From a virus, in the IMG/VR virus record IMGVR_UViG_3300020411_004007, positions 1 to 39,193 of that record: a stretch of DNA of 39,193 nucleotides; one strand, 5' to 3'. Below the pieces are notes generated by a model. The model was not told the DNA's origin. It saw only the letters and a list, made by a program, of their open reading frames with translations, and searched no databases. Position 1 is the stretch's first letter. Every line of letters begins with the position of its first letter. Position numbers and translations under genes: made by a program. Positions 9,472-29,471 of this stretch are shown here, in pieces.

Positions 9472-9504
9472 CTAGCTATTTATACAAGTATACAAGGGGG
9501 TAAC

Positions 9505-10237: not shown

Positions 10238-10690
10238 ATGAAGTTTAAACAATGGAATCGATATTTAACCGAGAATGAATTAAAAATTGTTGGCATCGTT
10301 GCATGTTTAGATGAAAAAGAAAGATTTCTAATAATTAGGCGTTCTGATATTGACGATAGAGCCGGCCAGTGGACATTGCCGGGTGGACACATCGATGAAG
10401 ATGACAAGTCAATAGAGTCAGGCGCCGTGAGAGAACTTGACGAAGAGGCTAATTTATTATGTAACACAGAAGACCTTATTTTTCTTGGACAACCAAAACC
10501 AAAAAAGTATTATTTTCTTACAAAAAAATGGTCGGGTAAGGTAAATGTTAGTAAACCTAATCCTCACACTGGTAAAATTGAGCACGATAAGTGGAAATGG
10601 GCAACCATTGAAGACATAAAAGACATAGAGAATAGCGAAATTCCGATCTATTTATTGGAGAAAGCTTTGGAAATGTCTAAAAATGGATGA
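10238..10690 (+). CDS. Nudix hydrolase
   Basis: 150 residues. The Nudix box is visible as PGGHIDEDDKSIESGAVREL followed by DEEANL, giving the REL-x-EE core that binds metal; the spacing between the first Gly and REL is longer than the consensus. The family hydrolyses nucleoside diphosphates linked to another group. The N terminus MKFKQWNRYLTENEL is separate from the domain and resembles N termini of other genes here (14875, 17894), possibly a virion-packaging tag. It overlaps the next gene by 8 bases. Confidence 0.85.
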   Translation: MKFKQWNRYLTENELKIVGIVACLDEKERFLIIRRSDIDDRAGQWTLPGGHIDEDDKSIESGAVRELDEEANLLCNTEDLIFLGQPKPKKYYFLTKKWSGKVNVSKPNPHTGKIEHDKWKWATIEDIKDIENSEIPIYLLEKALEMSKNG

Positions 10691-14752: not shown

Positions 14753-14878
14753 ATGACTGAAGAACAAAATAACAAGTATGACGACTCAATATGGGATACG
14801 TGGTCTATAGATACTGCTCGAACAGAACAAAAAATAAAGCAAAACAAGAATAAGGATAAAAAAGAGAAATCAAAATGA
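14753..14878 (+). CDS. 41-residue charged protein
   Basis: The frame begins MTEEQNNKYDDSIWDTWSID and ends in a Lys-rich tail (KQNKNKDKKEKSK). It fills the space between the 14509 and 14875 genes exactly, starting one base after the upstream stop codon and overlapping the next start by ATGA, which argues that it is translated. Function unknown. Confidence 0.5.
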   Translation: MTEEQNNKYDDSIWDTWSIDTARTEQKIKQNKNKDKKEKSK

Positions 14879-15462
14879 AACTCCTACTTGAAAATTGGCG
14901 AAAGTATTTAAACGAATCAAAACTTCGTGTTTTTGACTTTGATGACACAATTGCAAAGTCAGATTCTAAAATTTATATCACCACTGATACTGGTGAAAAA
15001 TTAGTTATGACACCGGGACAGTATGCCACTCATAAAGTTAATCCGGATTATGAATATGATTTTTCTGAGTTCGACGAAGTTATTAACCCAAGAGAAATTA
15101 AACAAATTACAAATATTGTTCGTAACGCACTTAATGCCGGAACAGAAGGTCGCGAGATTGCAATATTGACTGCACGGGATCAGAAGTCTGAAGATGCTAT
15201 TAAAAAATACTTAGAAAGTATTGATATTGATACTTCCAAGATTACATTTGTTCTTTTAGGTGATTCATCTGCAGAAATGAAAGCTGCATGGATAGCTGAC
15301 CGAATTGAAGCTGGTGCCACTGATGTTTTATTTTTCGATGATTCAGGTAAAAATGTCGATGCTGTTCAAGCCTTGACAAGCAAATACCCCGATGTTCAAA
15401 TAAAAGCTAGAAAAGTAAAATACGCCGAAGATATTGCGGAAAATACACCCCAACAAAGCTAA
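14875..15462 (+). CDS. HAD-superfamily phosphatase with targeting-like N terminus
   Basis: 195 residues. FDFDDTIA gives the HAD motif I (D21, D23). ILTARDQ is motif II-like, and LFFDDSGKNVDA (D155, D156) is motif IV. The layout matches short HAD hydrolases such as polynucleotide 3'-phosphatase-like domains, which repair RNA or DNA ends, though substrate is not determined. The first 15 residues MKLLLENWRKYLNES precede the fold and resemble the N termini of the Nudix and 17894 proteins. It may be carried in the virion. Confidence 0.75.
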   Translation: MKLLLENWRKYLNESKLRVFDFDDTIAKSDSKIYITTDTGEKLVMTPGQYATHKVNPDYEYDFSEFDEVINPREIKQITNIVRNALNAGTEGREIAILTARDQKSEDAIKKYLESIDIDTSKITFVLLGDSSAEMKAAWIADRIEAGATDVLFFDDSGKNVDAVQALTSKYPDVQIKARKVKYAEDIAENTPQQS

Positions 15463-16859: not shown

Positions 16860-16883
16860 CTTACAAACATGACTATTTATACA
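16856..16883 (+). promoter_or_regulatory. candidate sigma70-like promoter
   Basis: TTGACT at 16856, a 16-bp spacer and TATACA at 16878-16883; a CTATTTA motif overlaps at 16873-16879. The downstream AAGGA at 16891 and ATG at 16904 follow naturally, so the TTG at 16856 is more likely a -35 box than a start codon. Confidence 0.5.
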
Positions 16884-16903
16884 TTGAGTCAAGGAATTTT
16901 AAA

Positions 16904-17788
16904 ATGTATGATGATAACGTTCTAATAGATTTAATTAAACAATTTATGCCATTTGCACAAAAACACATTGGCTTTAAAGCTCCCCCTAGACTTTTTTTAA
17001 AAAGAGATAAAGAAAATGCAAAAAACCCGCTTGGTCGGACAGCACATTACGAAGTAGAAAATAAAGCAATTCACCTTTATGTCAGTGGGAGACACCCAAA
17101 AGATATTTTGCGTTCTTTAGGGCATGAATTAGTACATCATCATCAACATGGTGAAGGTATGTTTGATGGCACTGAATACCTTGGGCCAGGATATGCACAA
17201 AAAGATTTAAAAATGCGAAAAGCAGAAGAAGATGCAAATCAACGAGGTAGTATGTGCCTTAGAGATTTTGAAGATATGCTTAAAGCGAAAAATGAGACTA
17301 TTTATTACGAACATCTACAAAAAGGAGATAACAAGATGTCATTGAAAGATTGGAAAGATAAGGAAATTTCAACGCTTTTATCAGAAGCGTGGGGTTTTAA
17401 GTTTAACACATTACAAGAATTTGAGGAATTTGATGAACAAGCTGAAATACAGGCAGAGAGTGAAGAAGAAGTTACCGAAGAAGGTGCTGAAGCGGCCGCT
17501 GAGGAAACAGTTGAAGAATCCTCCGAGGAAGAACTCGAAGAGTCTGAAGAGCCGGTAAAGGAAGCCGCAAAAGATGAAGAAGAAGTTAAAATGGAAGAAT
17601 CTGAAGATGACGCTATTGAAGAAGCTGAGGAAGTAGAGGAACGCAGAAGCCGAGGACGCAACCGTGAAGGTATGGAGCCTAATAATAACAGGCGCCCTGG
17701 TCCTTCCGAGTCTAAGCTTCATGAAGCTAAAATTCGAGAAATTCTCAAGAAAGCAATTGAAATTGTACAAGCTAAGAAAGACAAGTAA
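16904..17788 (+). CDS. predicted zinc metallopeptidase with long acidic C-terminal domain
   Basis: 294 residues from ATG 16904 (AAGGA eight bases upstream). The N-terminal part has ILRSLGHELVHHHQH, an HExxH helix (H74, E75, H78) with further histidines. From residue 145 the protein changes to MSLKDWKDKEISTLLSEAWG, then a strongly acidic, low-complexity stretch (170-250) and a basic helical tail (KLHEAKIREILKKAIEIVQA). AAGGAG eight bases before codon 145 marks a second in-frame start. The arrangement recalls phage protease/scaffold nested pairs, as in lambda C/Nu3, but no homology to those is claimed. Confidence 0.7.
   Translation: MYDDNVLIDLIKQFMPFAQKHIGFKAPPRLFLKRDKENAKNPLGRTAHYEVENKAIHLYVSGRHPKDILRSLGHELVHHHQHGEGMFDGTEYLGPGYAQKDLKMRKAEEDANQRGSMCLRDFEDMLKAKNETIYYEHLQKGDNKMSLKDWKDKEISTLLSEAWGFKFNTLQEFEEFDEQAEIQAESEEEVTEEGAEAAAEETVEESSEEELEESEEPVKEAAKDEEEVKMEESEDDAIEEAEEVEERRSRGRNREGMEPNNNRRPGPSESKLHEAKIREILKKAIEIVQAKKDK
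17336..17788 (+). CDS. nested in-frame gene: acidic scaffold-like protein (150 residues)
   Basis: ATG 17336 is in frame with the metallopeptidase, and AAGGAG at 17322-17327 is one of the best ribosome sites of the right half. The product would start MSLKDWKDKEIS, similar to MSLESDWKNFLNEQ of the 17894 gene, followed by a Glu-rich disordered region and a basic helix. Independent translation would give the acidic domain alone in excess over the peptidase fusion. A scaffold or packaged role is inferred from composition and nesting. Confidence 0.55.
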   Translation: MSLKDWKDKEISTLLSEAWGFKFNTLQEFEEFDEQAEIQAESEEEVTEEGAEAAAEETVEESSEEELEESEEPVKEAAKDEEEVKMEESEDDAIEEAEEVEERRSRGRNREGMEPNNNRRPGPSESKLHEAKIREILKKAIEIVQAKKDK

Positions 17789-17893: not shown

Positions 17894-18145
17894 ATGTCTT
17901 TAGAATCAGACTGGAAAAACTTTTTAAACGAACAAATTAGTGAAAAAAATATCTTTACTTACATCTTAGGTCTCCAAGAGCTAATTTCTAAGTTTAAACC
18001 TCGAACTATGTCTGACAAAAATAGACTTGCCCTTGCTGAACAGCATCTCCGCGAAGTCAAACGATACGCACGGAGGATGCAGAACGAAATGCAGGTTCTT
18101 CAAGAAAAAGTTAGTATTCTTGAGGAATCTTTGGGTGATGAGTAA
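17894..18145 (+). CDS. small coiled-coil protein with targeting-like N terminus
   Basis: 83 residues from ATG 17894, which has AGGAG seven bases upstream. The start MSLESDWKNFLNEQISEKN resembles the other motif-bearing N termini. The rest is a long charged helix (LALAEQHLREVKRYARRMQN, EMQVLQEKVSILEESLG) with heptad spacing, likely a coiled coil. The stop shares a base with the next ATG. The reading frame extends upstream without a stop to 17795. Function unknown. Confidence 0.6.
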   Translation: MSLESDWKNFLNEQISEKNIFTYILGLQELISKFKPRTMSDKNRLALAEQHLREVKRYARRMQNEMQVLQEKVSILEESLGDE

Positions 18146-20202
18146 TGGGTGGTGCCGCTGGACACATGAATCACCCATTTGACTTGGGTTCAGTCAGGAC
18201 AGGTAAAGACCTTATTGATTTTTTCTATAGTGCTGTAGATTATCTTGAAACAGAAGGCGCTGGTAGTGTAAAAATCGATGGTGTTAATGTTTCTTTTAAG
18301 TTAGTAGAACAAGACGGTCAACATCAATTTGCTGTTGATCGAGGTTCTATGAAAGAAATAGATATTAGCGGCATTACAATGAGTCGTGTAGACGAAAGAT
18401 TTCCGGAAGGTCATGGCATGCGGCCGGCTATAAAAACGTTGCTGACTATTTTAAACGAAGCTTTACCGAGTATTGAACCACAGCTAAAAGAATTAGGTAT
18501 GTGGGATAATCCGACTTTGTTTTTGAACACTGAATACGTTGAAGGCACCACCAATGTTACTGATTATGATGAGAATTTCTTAGCAATACACACTCTAAGT
18601 CAATTTTATGAAAAAACCGCTAAATCAGGTCCCAGTAAAGGAAATATCAGACCCGGAGCTGAGCGGCCCACCACAACAGTTGTTAAAAGAGGGCAAGAAG
18701 TAGAAGTACCAATAAAAGATCCTAGCCGCGAAGTTTCATATGATCCAGAAGTAATGAACACCCTTGTTGAAAAACTAAATCCGATTGCAGAAAAATTGGG
18801 TTTTAAAGTTTATGGCTATGTACCAACTCGCCGCATAGTAGATTCCGACATTGATTTAGATAAAACTCTTTCTGAGCCGTTTACTATTAAAATCTCTGAT
18901 GATCGAGAAGTTACAAAACCTTTAGGCGATTGGCTAAAAGGTGCAAAAAATCCAGACTACGATGCTCTAAAAGTAAAAATCAATATCAATGGTCAAGAAC
19001 AAACTGTAACACGACATGCTTTAAATGCAGAATTATATAAGATTATTGGTATCGATAAAAACCCAATCGTAAATATAGTAGATCAAGCCGATGCAGAGCG
19101 TACAATTGATGGTACAGTTTTTATGCATGCTACTCGCATGCTTGGCAATGACATTTTAAGAGGTCTCACAAGCCCCATGGGAGACATTATGAATCACGAA
19201 GGGGTAGTACTCAGGGATGATGAAAAATTCGGTCCAAAGCCAGTAAAAATCACTGGTGAGTTTATCTTAGGTAACCTTGGAAGTGGATTTGGAAACGTTA
19301 AAGAAAACGAAGAAGACTTTGTTGGTTATCCGCACAAGCCAGTTGAAGAACAAGAAGATGAATCTGCTGATCCAGTAGTCGACGCAGATTTTACAGGTGA
19401 AACTGTTGCTTTTGTTCCCGGGGCTTTTAAACCTCCGCATCTTGGCCATTTAAAAATGGTTGAGCAATATGCTAATAGAGATGATGTTGATCGTGTAATT
19501 ATATTAATCTCAAGTCCAAAGAAGAAAAATCGTACACTAGATGATGGTACTGTTATAAAAGCAACTCATGCTGAAGATGTGTGGAAATTACTGCTAACAT
19601 CTGCTGGTTTATCTGATAATCCAAAAGTAGATTTAAGAGTTTCCAGTGAGCCATCACCAATTGGCGCTACCTTAGACATGATTGGACCTAATGGCATTCT
19701 TAAGCCCGGTGATAAAGTAATTTTAGGCGCTAGTGATAAACCAGATGATTCAGGCGTACCAGATTGGCACAGGTGGCTTTTTGTACAGCCAAAGGATATG
19801 ATGCAAGGTGTAGAGTTATTAGACCGTCAAGAGAACGCTGTGAAGGCTTATGACCGTCAAGGTGGAACACCGTTTAAAGCGCGAGATATGAGATCTCTGA
19901 TTTCAAAAGCAAAAACTGATGTTGATGCCATTGAAGAATTAGAAGAATTTGTTGGCGAAGAAAACGTTTTTGAACTCTTGGCCATCTTTGGTATGGGACC
20001 TCGCCAAGAAGAAGTAGATGCTGAGCTTGAAGAACACGCAATACAGGGCGCCCCGGCAGTCAAAACAAATTTTACCAACTTAGATGTAGAAGAATTTAAT
20101 GATGAGCAAGAAAGAAACAGCCGGCTCAACACAGAAAATATTGATTTAAGTATGGTAGACGAAGTTATGAAACTAATTATTGATAAAGGCATATTAAGAT
20201 GA
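18145..20202 (+). CDS. fusion of KxDG nucleotidyltransferase (RNA-ligase-like) and HxGH nucleotidylyltransferase
   Basis: 685 residues. The N-terminal half has SVKIDGVNVSFK (K43-x-D-G46, ligase motif I), AVDRGS, FLNTEYVEG (motif III/IIIa-like), HEGVVLRDD (351-359, motif IV) and KPVKITGEF (365-373, motif V), in the order of the covalent nucleotidyltransferase superfamily of RNA/DNA ligases. After an acidic linker, VAFVPGAFKPPHLGHLKMVE (H432-x-G-H435) opens a nucleotidylyltransferase like NMN or pantetheine-phosphate adenylyltransferases. The C terminus is helical and ends DEVMKLIIDKGILR. Both activities use a nucleoside triphosphate. A link to RNA repair or NAD chemistry is inferred. Confidence 0.7.
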   Translation: MGGAAGHMNHPFDLGSVRTGKDLIDFFYSAVDYLETEGAGSVKIDGVNVSFKLVEQDGQHQFAVDRGSMKEIDISGITMSRVDERFPEGHGMRPAIKTLLTILNEALPSIEPQLKELGMWDNPTLFLNTEYVEGTTNVTDYDENFLAIHTLSQFYEKTAKSGPSKGNIRPGAERPTTTVVKRGQEVEVPIKDPSREVSYDPEVMNTLVEKLNPIAEKLGFKVYGYVPTRRIVDSDIDLDKTLSEPFTIKISDDREVTKPLGDWLKGAKNPDYDALKVKININGQEQTVTRHALNAELYKIIGIDKNPIVNIVDQADAERTIDGTVFMHATRMLGNDILRGLTSPMGDIMNHEGVVLRDDEKFGPKPVKITGEFILGNLGSGFGNVKENEEDFVGYPHKPVEEQEDESADPVVDADFTGETVAFVPGAFKPPHLGHLKMVEQYANRDDVDRVIILISSPKKKNRTLDDGTVIKATHAEDVWKLLLTSAGLSDNPKVDLRVSSEPSPIGATLDMIGPNGILKPGDKVILGASDKPDDSGVPDWHRWLFVQPKDMMQGVELLDRQENAVKAYDRQGGTPFKARDMRSLISKAKTDVDAIEELEEFVGEENVFELLAIFGMGPRQEEVDAELEEHAIQGAPAVKTNFTNLDVEEFNDEQERNSRLNTENIDLSMVDEVMKLIIDKGILR

Positions 20203-28528: not shown

Positions 28529-28831
28529 ATGGATAAAGATAATGACAACAAAGTTCTTTCCGAAGAACAGGTTCACACCAATCCGGTTTTGGCTATGCGC
28601 GTAGAGACCGATTCCAAGCTTAAGGATTATTTGGTTGAATACGTAGGCTCTAAGCTAGATAATGAAGAAGTAACTGTCAATATGATTGCAGAAGTATTGG
28701 CCTCAGATTTTCCTGAATTTACTTTTGCCTTTGCTGAAGAAAACTTTTTACGTGGCTACCAACAAGGATTAGATGATGCTCAAAAACTACATAGCAGCTT
28801 CCCAGAAGCGGATAATGGAACAAGTAACTAA
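28529..28831 (+). CDS. hypothetical phage protein, helical
   Basis: 100 residues, acidic. LKDYLVEYVGSKLDNEEVTV, then MIAEVLASDFPEFTFAFAEE and NFLRGYQQGLDDA. AAAGGAG lies seven bases upstream. I recall close relatives as conserved unknowns in many marine phages. TATAAATA at 28484 and TATAAT at 28506 lie upstream but without a -35. It overlaps the next gene by 56 bases. Confidence 0.62.
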   Translation: MDKDNDNKVLSEEQVHTNPVLAMRVETDSKLKDYLVEYVGSKLDNEEVTVNMIAEVLASDFPEFTFAFAEENFLRGYQQGLDDAQKLHSSFPEADNGTSN

Positions 28832-29471
28832 TTTTTATACTGGAAGCGGCATTCAAGTATATTTTAAAGATCAAATGCTTGATGAGCGCATCGATGTTGA
28901 AAAAATTATCTCTAGTTTCGAAAGGTTATTACCTAGCCACCTTTTAGAAGAAGTAGAAATGATTATAATTGGGCATTTTCAAGAATTTGAAGATCACTCA
29001 TTTACAGCTTTTTATAAGGATGGTGCTTTGCATATTTCTAATGTACAGATAGATTCAGAAACGATGCTAAATGATATGATTCATGAAACGGCTCATGCTT
29101 GTGAAACTGCATACGGTCAGGAAATCTATGCTGATAGTAAAATTAAAGATGAATTTTTGAGAAAAAGATTACATCTTTATAATATTTTATGGAAAATGGA
29201 TTTTAAAGCCCCAAAAAGTATATTTTTAGATATTGAATATGATGAAGAATTTGATTTATTTTTATTCCAAGATATTGGATATCAAACACTTGGCAATGTT
29301 GTAAAGGGGCTATTTGTTAACGCTTATGCTCCGACGTCATTAAGAGAATACTTCGCCACTGGCTTTGCCGAATTTTATCAACACCCCAATAATCATTCAG
29401 CCTTGAAAAAAATGAGTCCTGCGTTGTACGAAAAAATTACATTATTACACAATCTTGATAAAATTGATTGA
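28776..29471 (+). CDS. predicted zinc metallopeptidase
   Basis: 231 residues from ATG 28776 (AAGGA seven bases upstream; ATG 28773 is one codon earlier). DMIHETAHACE provides the HExxH zinc helix, about residues 103-107. Before it, HFQEFEDHSFTAFYKDGALH and ISNVQ form the edge strands usual in zincins; after it, LREYFATGFAEFYQHP supplies a likely third zinc ligand Glu. Known as a recurrent but uncharacterised phage peptidase. It overlaps the previous gene by 56 bases. Confidence 0.65.
   Translation: MLKNYIAASQKRIMEQVTNFYTGSGIQVYFKDQMLDERIDVEKIISSFERLLPSHLLEEVEMIIIGHFQEFEDHSFTAFYKDGALHISNVQIDSETMLNDMIHETAHACETAYGQEIYADSKIKDEFLRKRLHLYNILWKMDFKAPKSIFLDIEYDEEFDLFLFQDIGYQTLGNVVKGLFVNAYAPTSLREYFATGFAEFYQHPNNHSALKKMSPALYEKITLLHNLDKID

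Follow-up and report, generated by a model that had tools for sequence, protein, structure and literature searches.

In the account of Shaw and Murialdo (1980), as cited in PMC8508860, bacteriophage lambda carries a protease gene, C, within which a core/scaffold gene, Nu3, is nested in frame. In herpesviruses, the UL26 product has a protease at its N-terminus and a core protein at its C-terminus; a start inside the gene (UL26.5) yields the core protein by itself as well, and the products of UL26 and UL26.5 co-assemble (PMC12474303). In bacteriophage T4, gene 21 contains a second in-frame start, and the short form made from it (gp21s, from Met45) is required for head assembly (PMC9026906). The internal proteins of T4 carry an N-terminal capsid targeting sequence (CTS) of 10-19 residues with key positions 4, 7, 8 and 10, and gp21 cuts at L/I-x-E (PMC9026906). 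A T4 late promoter is a single TATA-type box that lies roughly one helical turn upstream of the start (PMC2988020).

Here we analyze a nested locus in an IMG/VR record (IMGVR_UViG_3300020411_004007) of a marine virus that infects bacteria. The record, a genome fragment without head genes, is 39,193 nucleotides long and was analyzed as a whole (hereafter, the window). The frame at 16904-17788 encodes a protein of 294 aa, with HELVH at residues 74-78 and MSLKDWKDKEISTLLSEAWG starting from codon 145, followed by a Glu-rich stretch. A previous sequence-only reading of this region had reported these details, all of which proved correct on rereading, and had compared the layout with that of nested protease/scaffold genes; this parallel holds, here with a zinc-type peptidase domain. 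In all likelihood, judging from the sequence and its conservation, this is a nested gene with an in-frame internal start that encodes two products. The features of the locus and its immediate surroundings, with the evidence for each in brackets, are the following:

16872..16879, + strand: ACTATTTA, box resembling a promoter, 32 nt upstream of the outer ATG (motif search; upstream conservation)
16891..16895, + strand: AAGGA, ribosome-site-like sequence of the outer gene (sequence)
16904..17788, + strand: outer (fusion) gene, 294 aa, metallopeptidase-like domain plus acidic tail (ORF reading; frame stays fused in relatives)
16904..17320, + strand: metallopeptidase-like domain, residues 1-139 (AlphaFold2 model; zincin-fold structure matches)
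17123..17137, + strand: HELVH zinc-binding motif, residues 74-78, with H74, E75 and H78 invariant (alignment)
17225..17227, + strand: E108, invariant, candidate third zinc ligand, a role that is presumed (alignment)
17297..17304, + strand: ACTATTTA, inner promoter-like box ascribed to the nested gene, within the peptidase coding sequence (synonymous conservation; motif enrichment)
17322..17327, + strand: AAGGAG, predicted internal ribosome-binding site (sequence; conservation in relatives)
17336..17788, + strand: nested inner gene, 150 aa, acidic, mostly disordered protein (ATG conservation; inner alignment; model)
17336..17395, + strand: MSLKDWKDKEISTLLSEAWG, conserved capsid-targeting-like tag at the inner N-terminus, L15-x-E17 being invariant (inner alignment; likeness to the T4 CTS description in PMC9026906)
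17717..17782, + strand: C-terminal L-H-E-A plus helix (residues 274-293 in the model), second possible L-x-E site (alignment; model)
17894..18145, + strand: small neighboring gene with the strict tag W-x-x-F-L-x-E, MSLESDWKNFLNEQ (pattern search)

Peptidase domain and its fusion to the tail

The AlphaFold2 model of residues 1-139 had a mean pLDDT of 83.9 and a pTM of 0.81. Structure comparison with VIA-align yielded Z-scores of 7.6 for Wss1, 7.3 for IrrE/PprI and 6.1 for ArdC, all below the secure level, and values of Z <8 may reflect merely a common arrangement; the Foldseek E-values were all >0.02, with IrrE at 0.025. Like these zincins and Pfam family DUF6647, the domain carries HExxH on a helix and a conserved Glu downstream. 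The DUF6647 profile matched 30 of the 31 members weakly at E <= 0.01 (best 4e-6), with the score of the window protein itself falling below the Pfam cut-off. Searches of Pfam and PHROGs yielded no confident family for the window protein and no hit at all for the inner protein, whereas a sequence-only comparison of the peptidase profile with solved structures returned nothing meaningful (best E 0.078). The profile PF03420 (Peptidase_S77, gp21-type) did not match this protein either. With its HExxH motif and the invariant H74, E75, H78 and E108, the domain is unlike the serine-type protease domain of lambda C. We consider the domain to be zincin-like and putatively a peptidase.

In IMG/VR, 46 loci encoding the entire protein were identified, and the two halves were found as alignments in additional sets. 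Among the sequences that could be read through, the halves are fused in 187 hits and out of frame in one contig (L045, which recurs as L115 and L201), in which they overlap through a 1-nt difference in an A run, and this split may be a sequencing error. The expectation of the sequence-only reading that relatives sometimes split the two parts into separate genes is therefore borne out, within IMG/VR, by this single and possibly erroneous contig, and the parts are fused in all others. The linker between the halves varies in length among relatives, with the frame kept. Given that the frame is unbroken in all but one contig and that the linker changes length in frame, the fusion is probably maintained by selection.

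Among isolated phages, a relative was found in Flavobacterium phage immuto only. The immuto protein (immuto35A_182, 'NMN adenylyltransferase', L078:7216-9939) contains a related peptidase domain with 36% identity, but there the domain is fused to NMN adenylyltransferase, followed by a second HExxH motif, and the inner tag is missing. The window itself encodes a second putative zinc peptidase (28773-29471), with weak, sub-cut-off profile matches, and a DUF2201 metallopeptidase/VWA-like protein (1207-2421).

Internal start and promoter-like boxes

The ribosome site AAGGAG is located exactly 8 nt upstream of the ATG at 17336 (codon 145), as the sequence-only reading had it. We checked whether relatives lose this internal site and found it kept by all 92 distinct relatives. 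The inner ATG is present in 92/92 distinct homologous sequences from IMG/VR, and the ribosome site reads AAGGAG in 85/92, AGGAG in 5/92 and GGAG in 2/92, so that GGAG is present in all. The residue that follows the ribosome-site Gly is D, E, A or V, and because the codon is always GNN, GGAG survives these amino acid changes.

Synonymous codon usage was analyzed in 24 homologs with mutual identity <95%, drawn from a parent set with a median identity of 67%, across 31 columns in which the amino acid is constant and has three or more synonymous codons. At only 3 of the 31 columns was a single codon used in all 24 homologs, namely, T132 (ACT), I133 (ATT) and G141 (GGA); at the next-best column, the commonest codon reached 79%. 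The GGA codon of G141 is part of the ribosome site, and the codons of T132 and I133 spell ACTATTTA. In a wider count, GGA was used in 83/83 sequences and ACT in 83/83 although, as with all conservation counts here, these observations are not independent because the relatives share descent. The conservation of the internal start is greater than expected by chance, and by this measure the start is real; both products are predicted to be made.

The internal promoter-like box, which is absent from the sequence-only reading and was found in the follow-up analysis, starts 39 nt before the inner ATG and is spelled by ACT ATT TA(T/C). The exact internal ACTATTTA is present in 77/92 sequences and altered in 15/92, of which 13 have ACTACTTA. 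Upstream of the outer start, 40 of 41 distinct relatives have CTA[ATC]TTA within 70 nt, and the motif often falls in the last part of the preceding gene. More broadly, among the 7-mers that are strongly enriched ahead of genes in this phage group, CTATTTA is the commonest. With gene starts in relatives taken from a simple in-house ORF caller, it occurs there 51 times in the sense orientation versus 2 times in the antisense orientation, with 4.5 occurrences expected from coding interiors; a second, overlapping set gave 38, 1 and 2.1, respectively. In a 203 kb record from a relative (G003), CTATTTA precedes the gp22-like, tail-tube and head-tail-adaptor-like genes. Boxes of this sequence are also found 25-40 nt ahead of gene starts in the window, at 9476, 10648, 15488, 21335 and other positions, all on the + strand.

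Within the window, CTATTTAT was counted 5 times versus 3.07 expected, a difference that is not significant, and the strength of this motif in the window lies in its position, strand and conservation rather than in its count. The T4 late box TATAAAT showed no sense-strand enrichment in these phages (6 sense, 11 antisense). One G003 protein weakly matches the T4-type late sigma factor gp55 (phrog_234, E 1.5e-4). The CTATTTA boxes in the window probably represent the late promoter of this phage group, and we take ACTATTTA to be this lineage's late promoter box. The inner gene, then, very probably also has its own late promoter, and a transcript initiated from the inner box would start just ahead of the inner ribosome site.

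Acidic tail and tagged neighbors

The N-terminus of the inner protein is invariant at M1, S2, K4, W6, E10, L15, E17, G20 and F21, and L15-x-E17 closes the tag in 25/25 sequences. E130 of the inner protein is nearly invariant as well, and a second L-x-E-A is frequent at the inner C-terminus. In the pooled inner tails, [LI]-x-E occurs 141 times versus 65 expected from shuffled tails, an excess that is inflated by the kinship of the sequences; none of the offsets 1, 3, 4 and 5 showed a comparable excess. In the tail of the window protein alone, the motif occurs 5 times versus 3.3 expected, which is not a significant excess (p 0.18). Within the fusion product, the tag is located internally. In some relatives (L023, L033, L035, L039, L044 and L046), the acidic tail carries swappable modules, namely, a APNHYCVHHGGV...DMKLxDGTI domain, which is conserved, and a linker, RRARGRDREGMEPDSRRRP.

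Peptides like MKLLLENWRKYLNE stand at the start of many proteins encoded around the nested locus, and these proteins are unrelated in content. The pattern W-x-x-[FYL][LI]-x-E was found at 10 N-termini and in 0 protein interiors (57,895 positions) in G003, and at 28 N-termini and 0 interiors in the window and other loci. In the window, the strict tag is carried by a nudix gene (10238-10690), a HAD-type gene (14875-15462) and the small unknown gene at 17894-18145. The sequence-only reading had noted that the inner N-terminus resembles that of the 17894 gene, and both indeed follow MSL..W..K/N...L-x-E, but the strict W-x-x-F-L-x-E is present in the 17894 protein only. The inner N-terminus reads I-x-x-L-L-x-E, which leaves the strict W-x-x-[FY]-L-x-E unmatched and fits only the looser form.

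The spacing of the strict tag is that of positions 4, 7, 8 and 10 of the T4 CTS (protein IPIII) as reported in PMC9026906. As in the T4 internal proteins, a short N-terminal peptide ends in L/I-x-E, with the spacing matched by the strict tag of the neighbors and loosely by the inner N-terminus; unlike in T4, the neighboring tags are W-based, and the likeness is one of pattern. No publication on the tag peptide MKLLLENW turned up in the literature. One more tagged protein, g213 of G003 (L076:9895-10863), has a weak nucleotidyltransferase match and is a candidate packaged enzyme. In both the window and G003, the nested locus is followed by a gene for a large protein (18145-20202 in the window) that combines a K-x-DG motif like that of ligases with a cytidylyltransferase-like domain.

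Possible roles of the two products

The sequence-only reading proposed that the peptidase might be a new kind of head-maturation protease or a packaged toxin-protease. The first proposal is largely contradicted by the head genes of the relatives, and the toxin part of the second found no support. A T4-type prohead protease (PF03420, gp21-type) is encoded at another locus in 6 relatives, and a gp23-type capsid protein (PF07068) in 5. In G003, the genes run from terminase through that of a 656-aa protein at the portal position to gp21 and, after other genes, to the gp22-like gene and gp23. The gp22-like acidic gene, assigned from its position and acidic composition, with a profile search giving no hit, adjoins gp23, and the nested locus lies about 100 kb away. 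G003 also encodes, besides the gp21-type protease, a ClpP/head-maturation-protease-like protein (g200, L075:17504-18157). Because the gp21-type, gp22-like and gp23 genes are separate, and about 100 kb away in G003, the nested gene is very unlikely to encode the main head-maturation protease and scaffold: the gp21-type protease together with gp23 led us to reject the former role, and the gp22-like gene adjoining gp23 the latter for the inner protein. A true analogue of lambda C/Nu3, with the metallopeptidase as the head-maturation protease and the inner protein as the main scaffold, would share the layout seen here, that is, a leading protease domain and an acidic nested product with the same C-terminus, but it is largely contradicted by these same head genes and we give it hardly any credence. 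The resemblance to lambda is that of an in-frame core/scaffold-type gene nested in a protease gene; in lambda, the protease is serine-type and lies beside the capsid genes, whereas the phage locus has a zinc-type domain and its own promoter-like box and is located about 100 kb from the capsid genes.

The best explanation of the locus as a whole, which we somewhat favor, is that it encodes two late proteins with a shared tail and that the metallopeptidase is loaded into the prohead. The box before codon 1 would yield the metallopeptidase fused to the acidic tail, and the second box, which lies within the peptidase sequence and is followed by a separate ribosome site and the ATG at codon 145, would yield the tail alone, probably in excess. 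The N-terminus of the tail would be a capsid-targeting-like peptide ending in the L-x-E that is cut by gp21-type prohead proteases. As the two products share the tail, they would likely co-assemble with or into the prohead core, with the tail serving as core or adapter and the fusion bringing the peptidase into the head. Trimming of the tail by gp21 would leave the peptidase in the virion, from which it could possibly be ejected into the host bacterium. The product ratio, co-assembly, cutting by gp21 and ejection are predictions of this scheme, and for the packaging role taken by itself we see the chances as even. Counting against the scheme are the loose fit of the inner N-terminus to the strict tag, the weak [LI]-x-E excess in the window protein's own tail, the internal position of the tag in the fusion, the altered box in 15/92 sequences, the weak matches of the peptidase domain and the fact that the gp21-type, gp22-like and gp23 genes come from relatives.

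The herpesvirus genes offer the comparison of a protease-core fusion with the core also made alone from an internal start, and UL26.5 has its own promoter. The herpesvirus protease, however, is a serine protease of a different fold. UL26.5 also provides the main scaffold of herpesviruses; the phages studied here, by contrast, encode a gp21-type protease and a gp22-like protein in genes of their own. T4 gp21s likewise arises from a second in-frame start inside a head gene, but it is a different protein with a different fold, and the short form begins just 44 residues in, so that it does not amount to a separate tail protein.

The chief rival to the packaging reading is that two products are made but the tail stays unpackaged, the free acidic tail serving as an inhibitor, chaperone or substrate adapter of the peptidase in the infected cell, with L-x-E being incidental. 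The tail is acidic and mostly disordered and has swappable modules in relatives, as is often the case for regulatory tails, and the inner N-terminus misses the strict tag. This role would, however, leave aside the invariance of L-x-E at the tag end, the [LI]-x-E excess specific to the +2 offset, the late-type promoter motif and the capsid-targeting-like tags of the neighbors, and we consider it rather unlikely. That the fusion alone matters, with the inner ATG and ribosome-like site being by-products of conserved residues and the internal box driving 17894 onwards, is a much less probable account: the near universality of the fusion and the many late genes with promoters within the preceding gene would suit it, but amino acid identity explains neither GGA in 83/83 nor GNN after each residue swap nor ATG in 92/92, and a promoter for a downstream gene needs no ribosome site 8 nt ahead of an in-frame ATG. 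We assign a similarly slight chance, lower still, to an accidental ancestral fusion of two overlapping genes, neutral in itself, with functional separate products. The out-of-frame overlap of the halves in L045 would be its trace, but that contig differs by one base in an A run, possibly an error, and all other sequences are without a stop or frame change despite the changes in linker length.

Taken further, and more tentatively than the packaging role, the locus could point to a T4-related marine phage lineage in which a herpes-like two-product gene loads a metallopeptidase, the tail with its late promoter is a core adapter, and a wider set of enzymes carries a modular capsid-targeting tag. 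If the packaging reading is correct, this would be a third form of the protease-plus-nested-core layout, next to those of lambda and herpesviruses, characterized by a zinc-type protease and an internal late promoter and serving cargo loading instead of head maturation. With the tag present on many unrelated proteins, the packaged proteins of uncultured marine phages would then be predictable from sequence alone.
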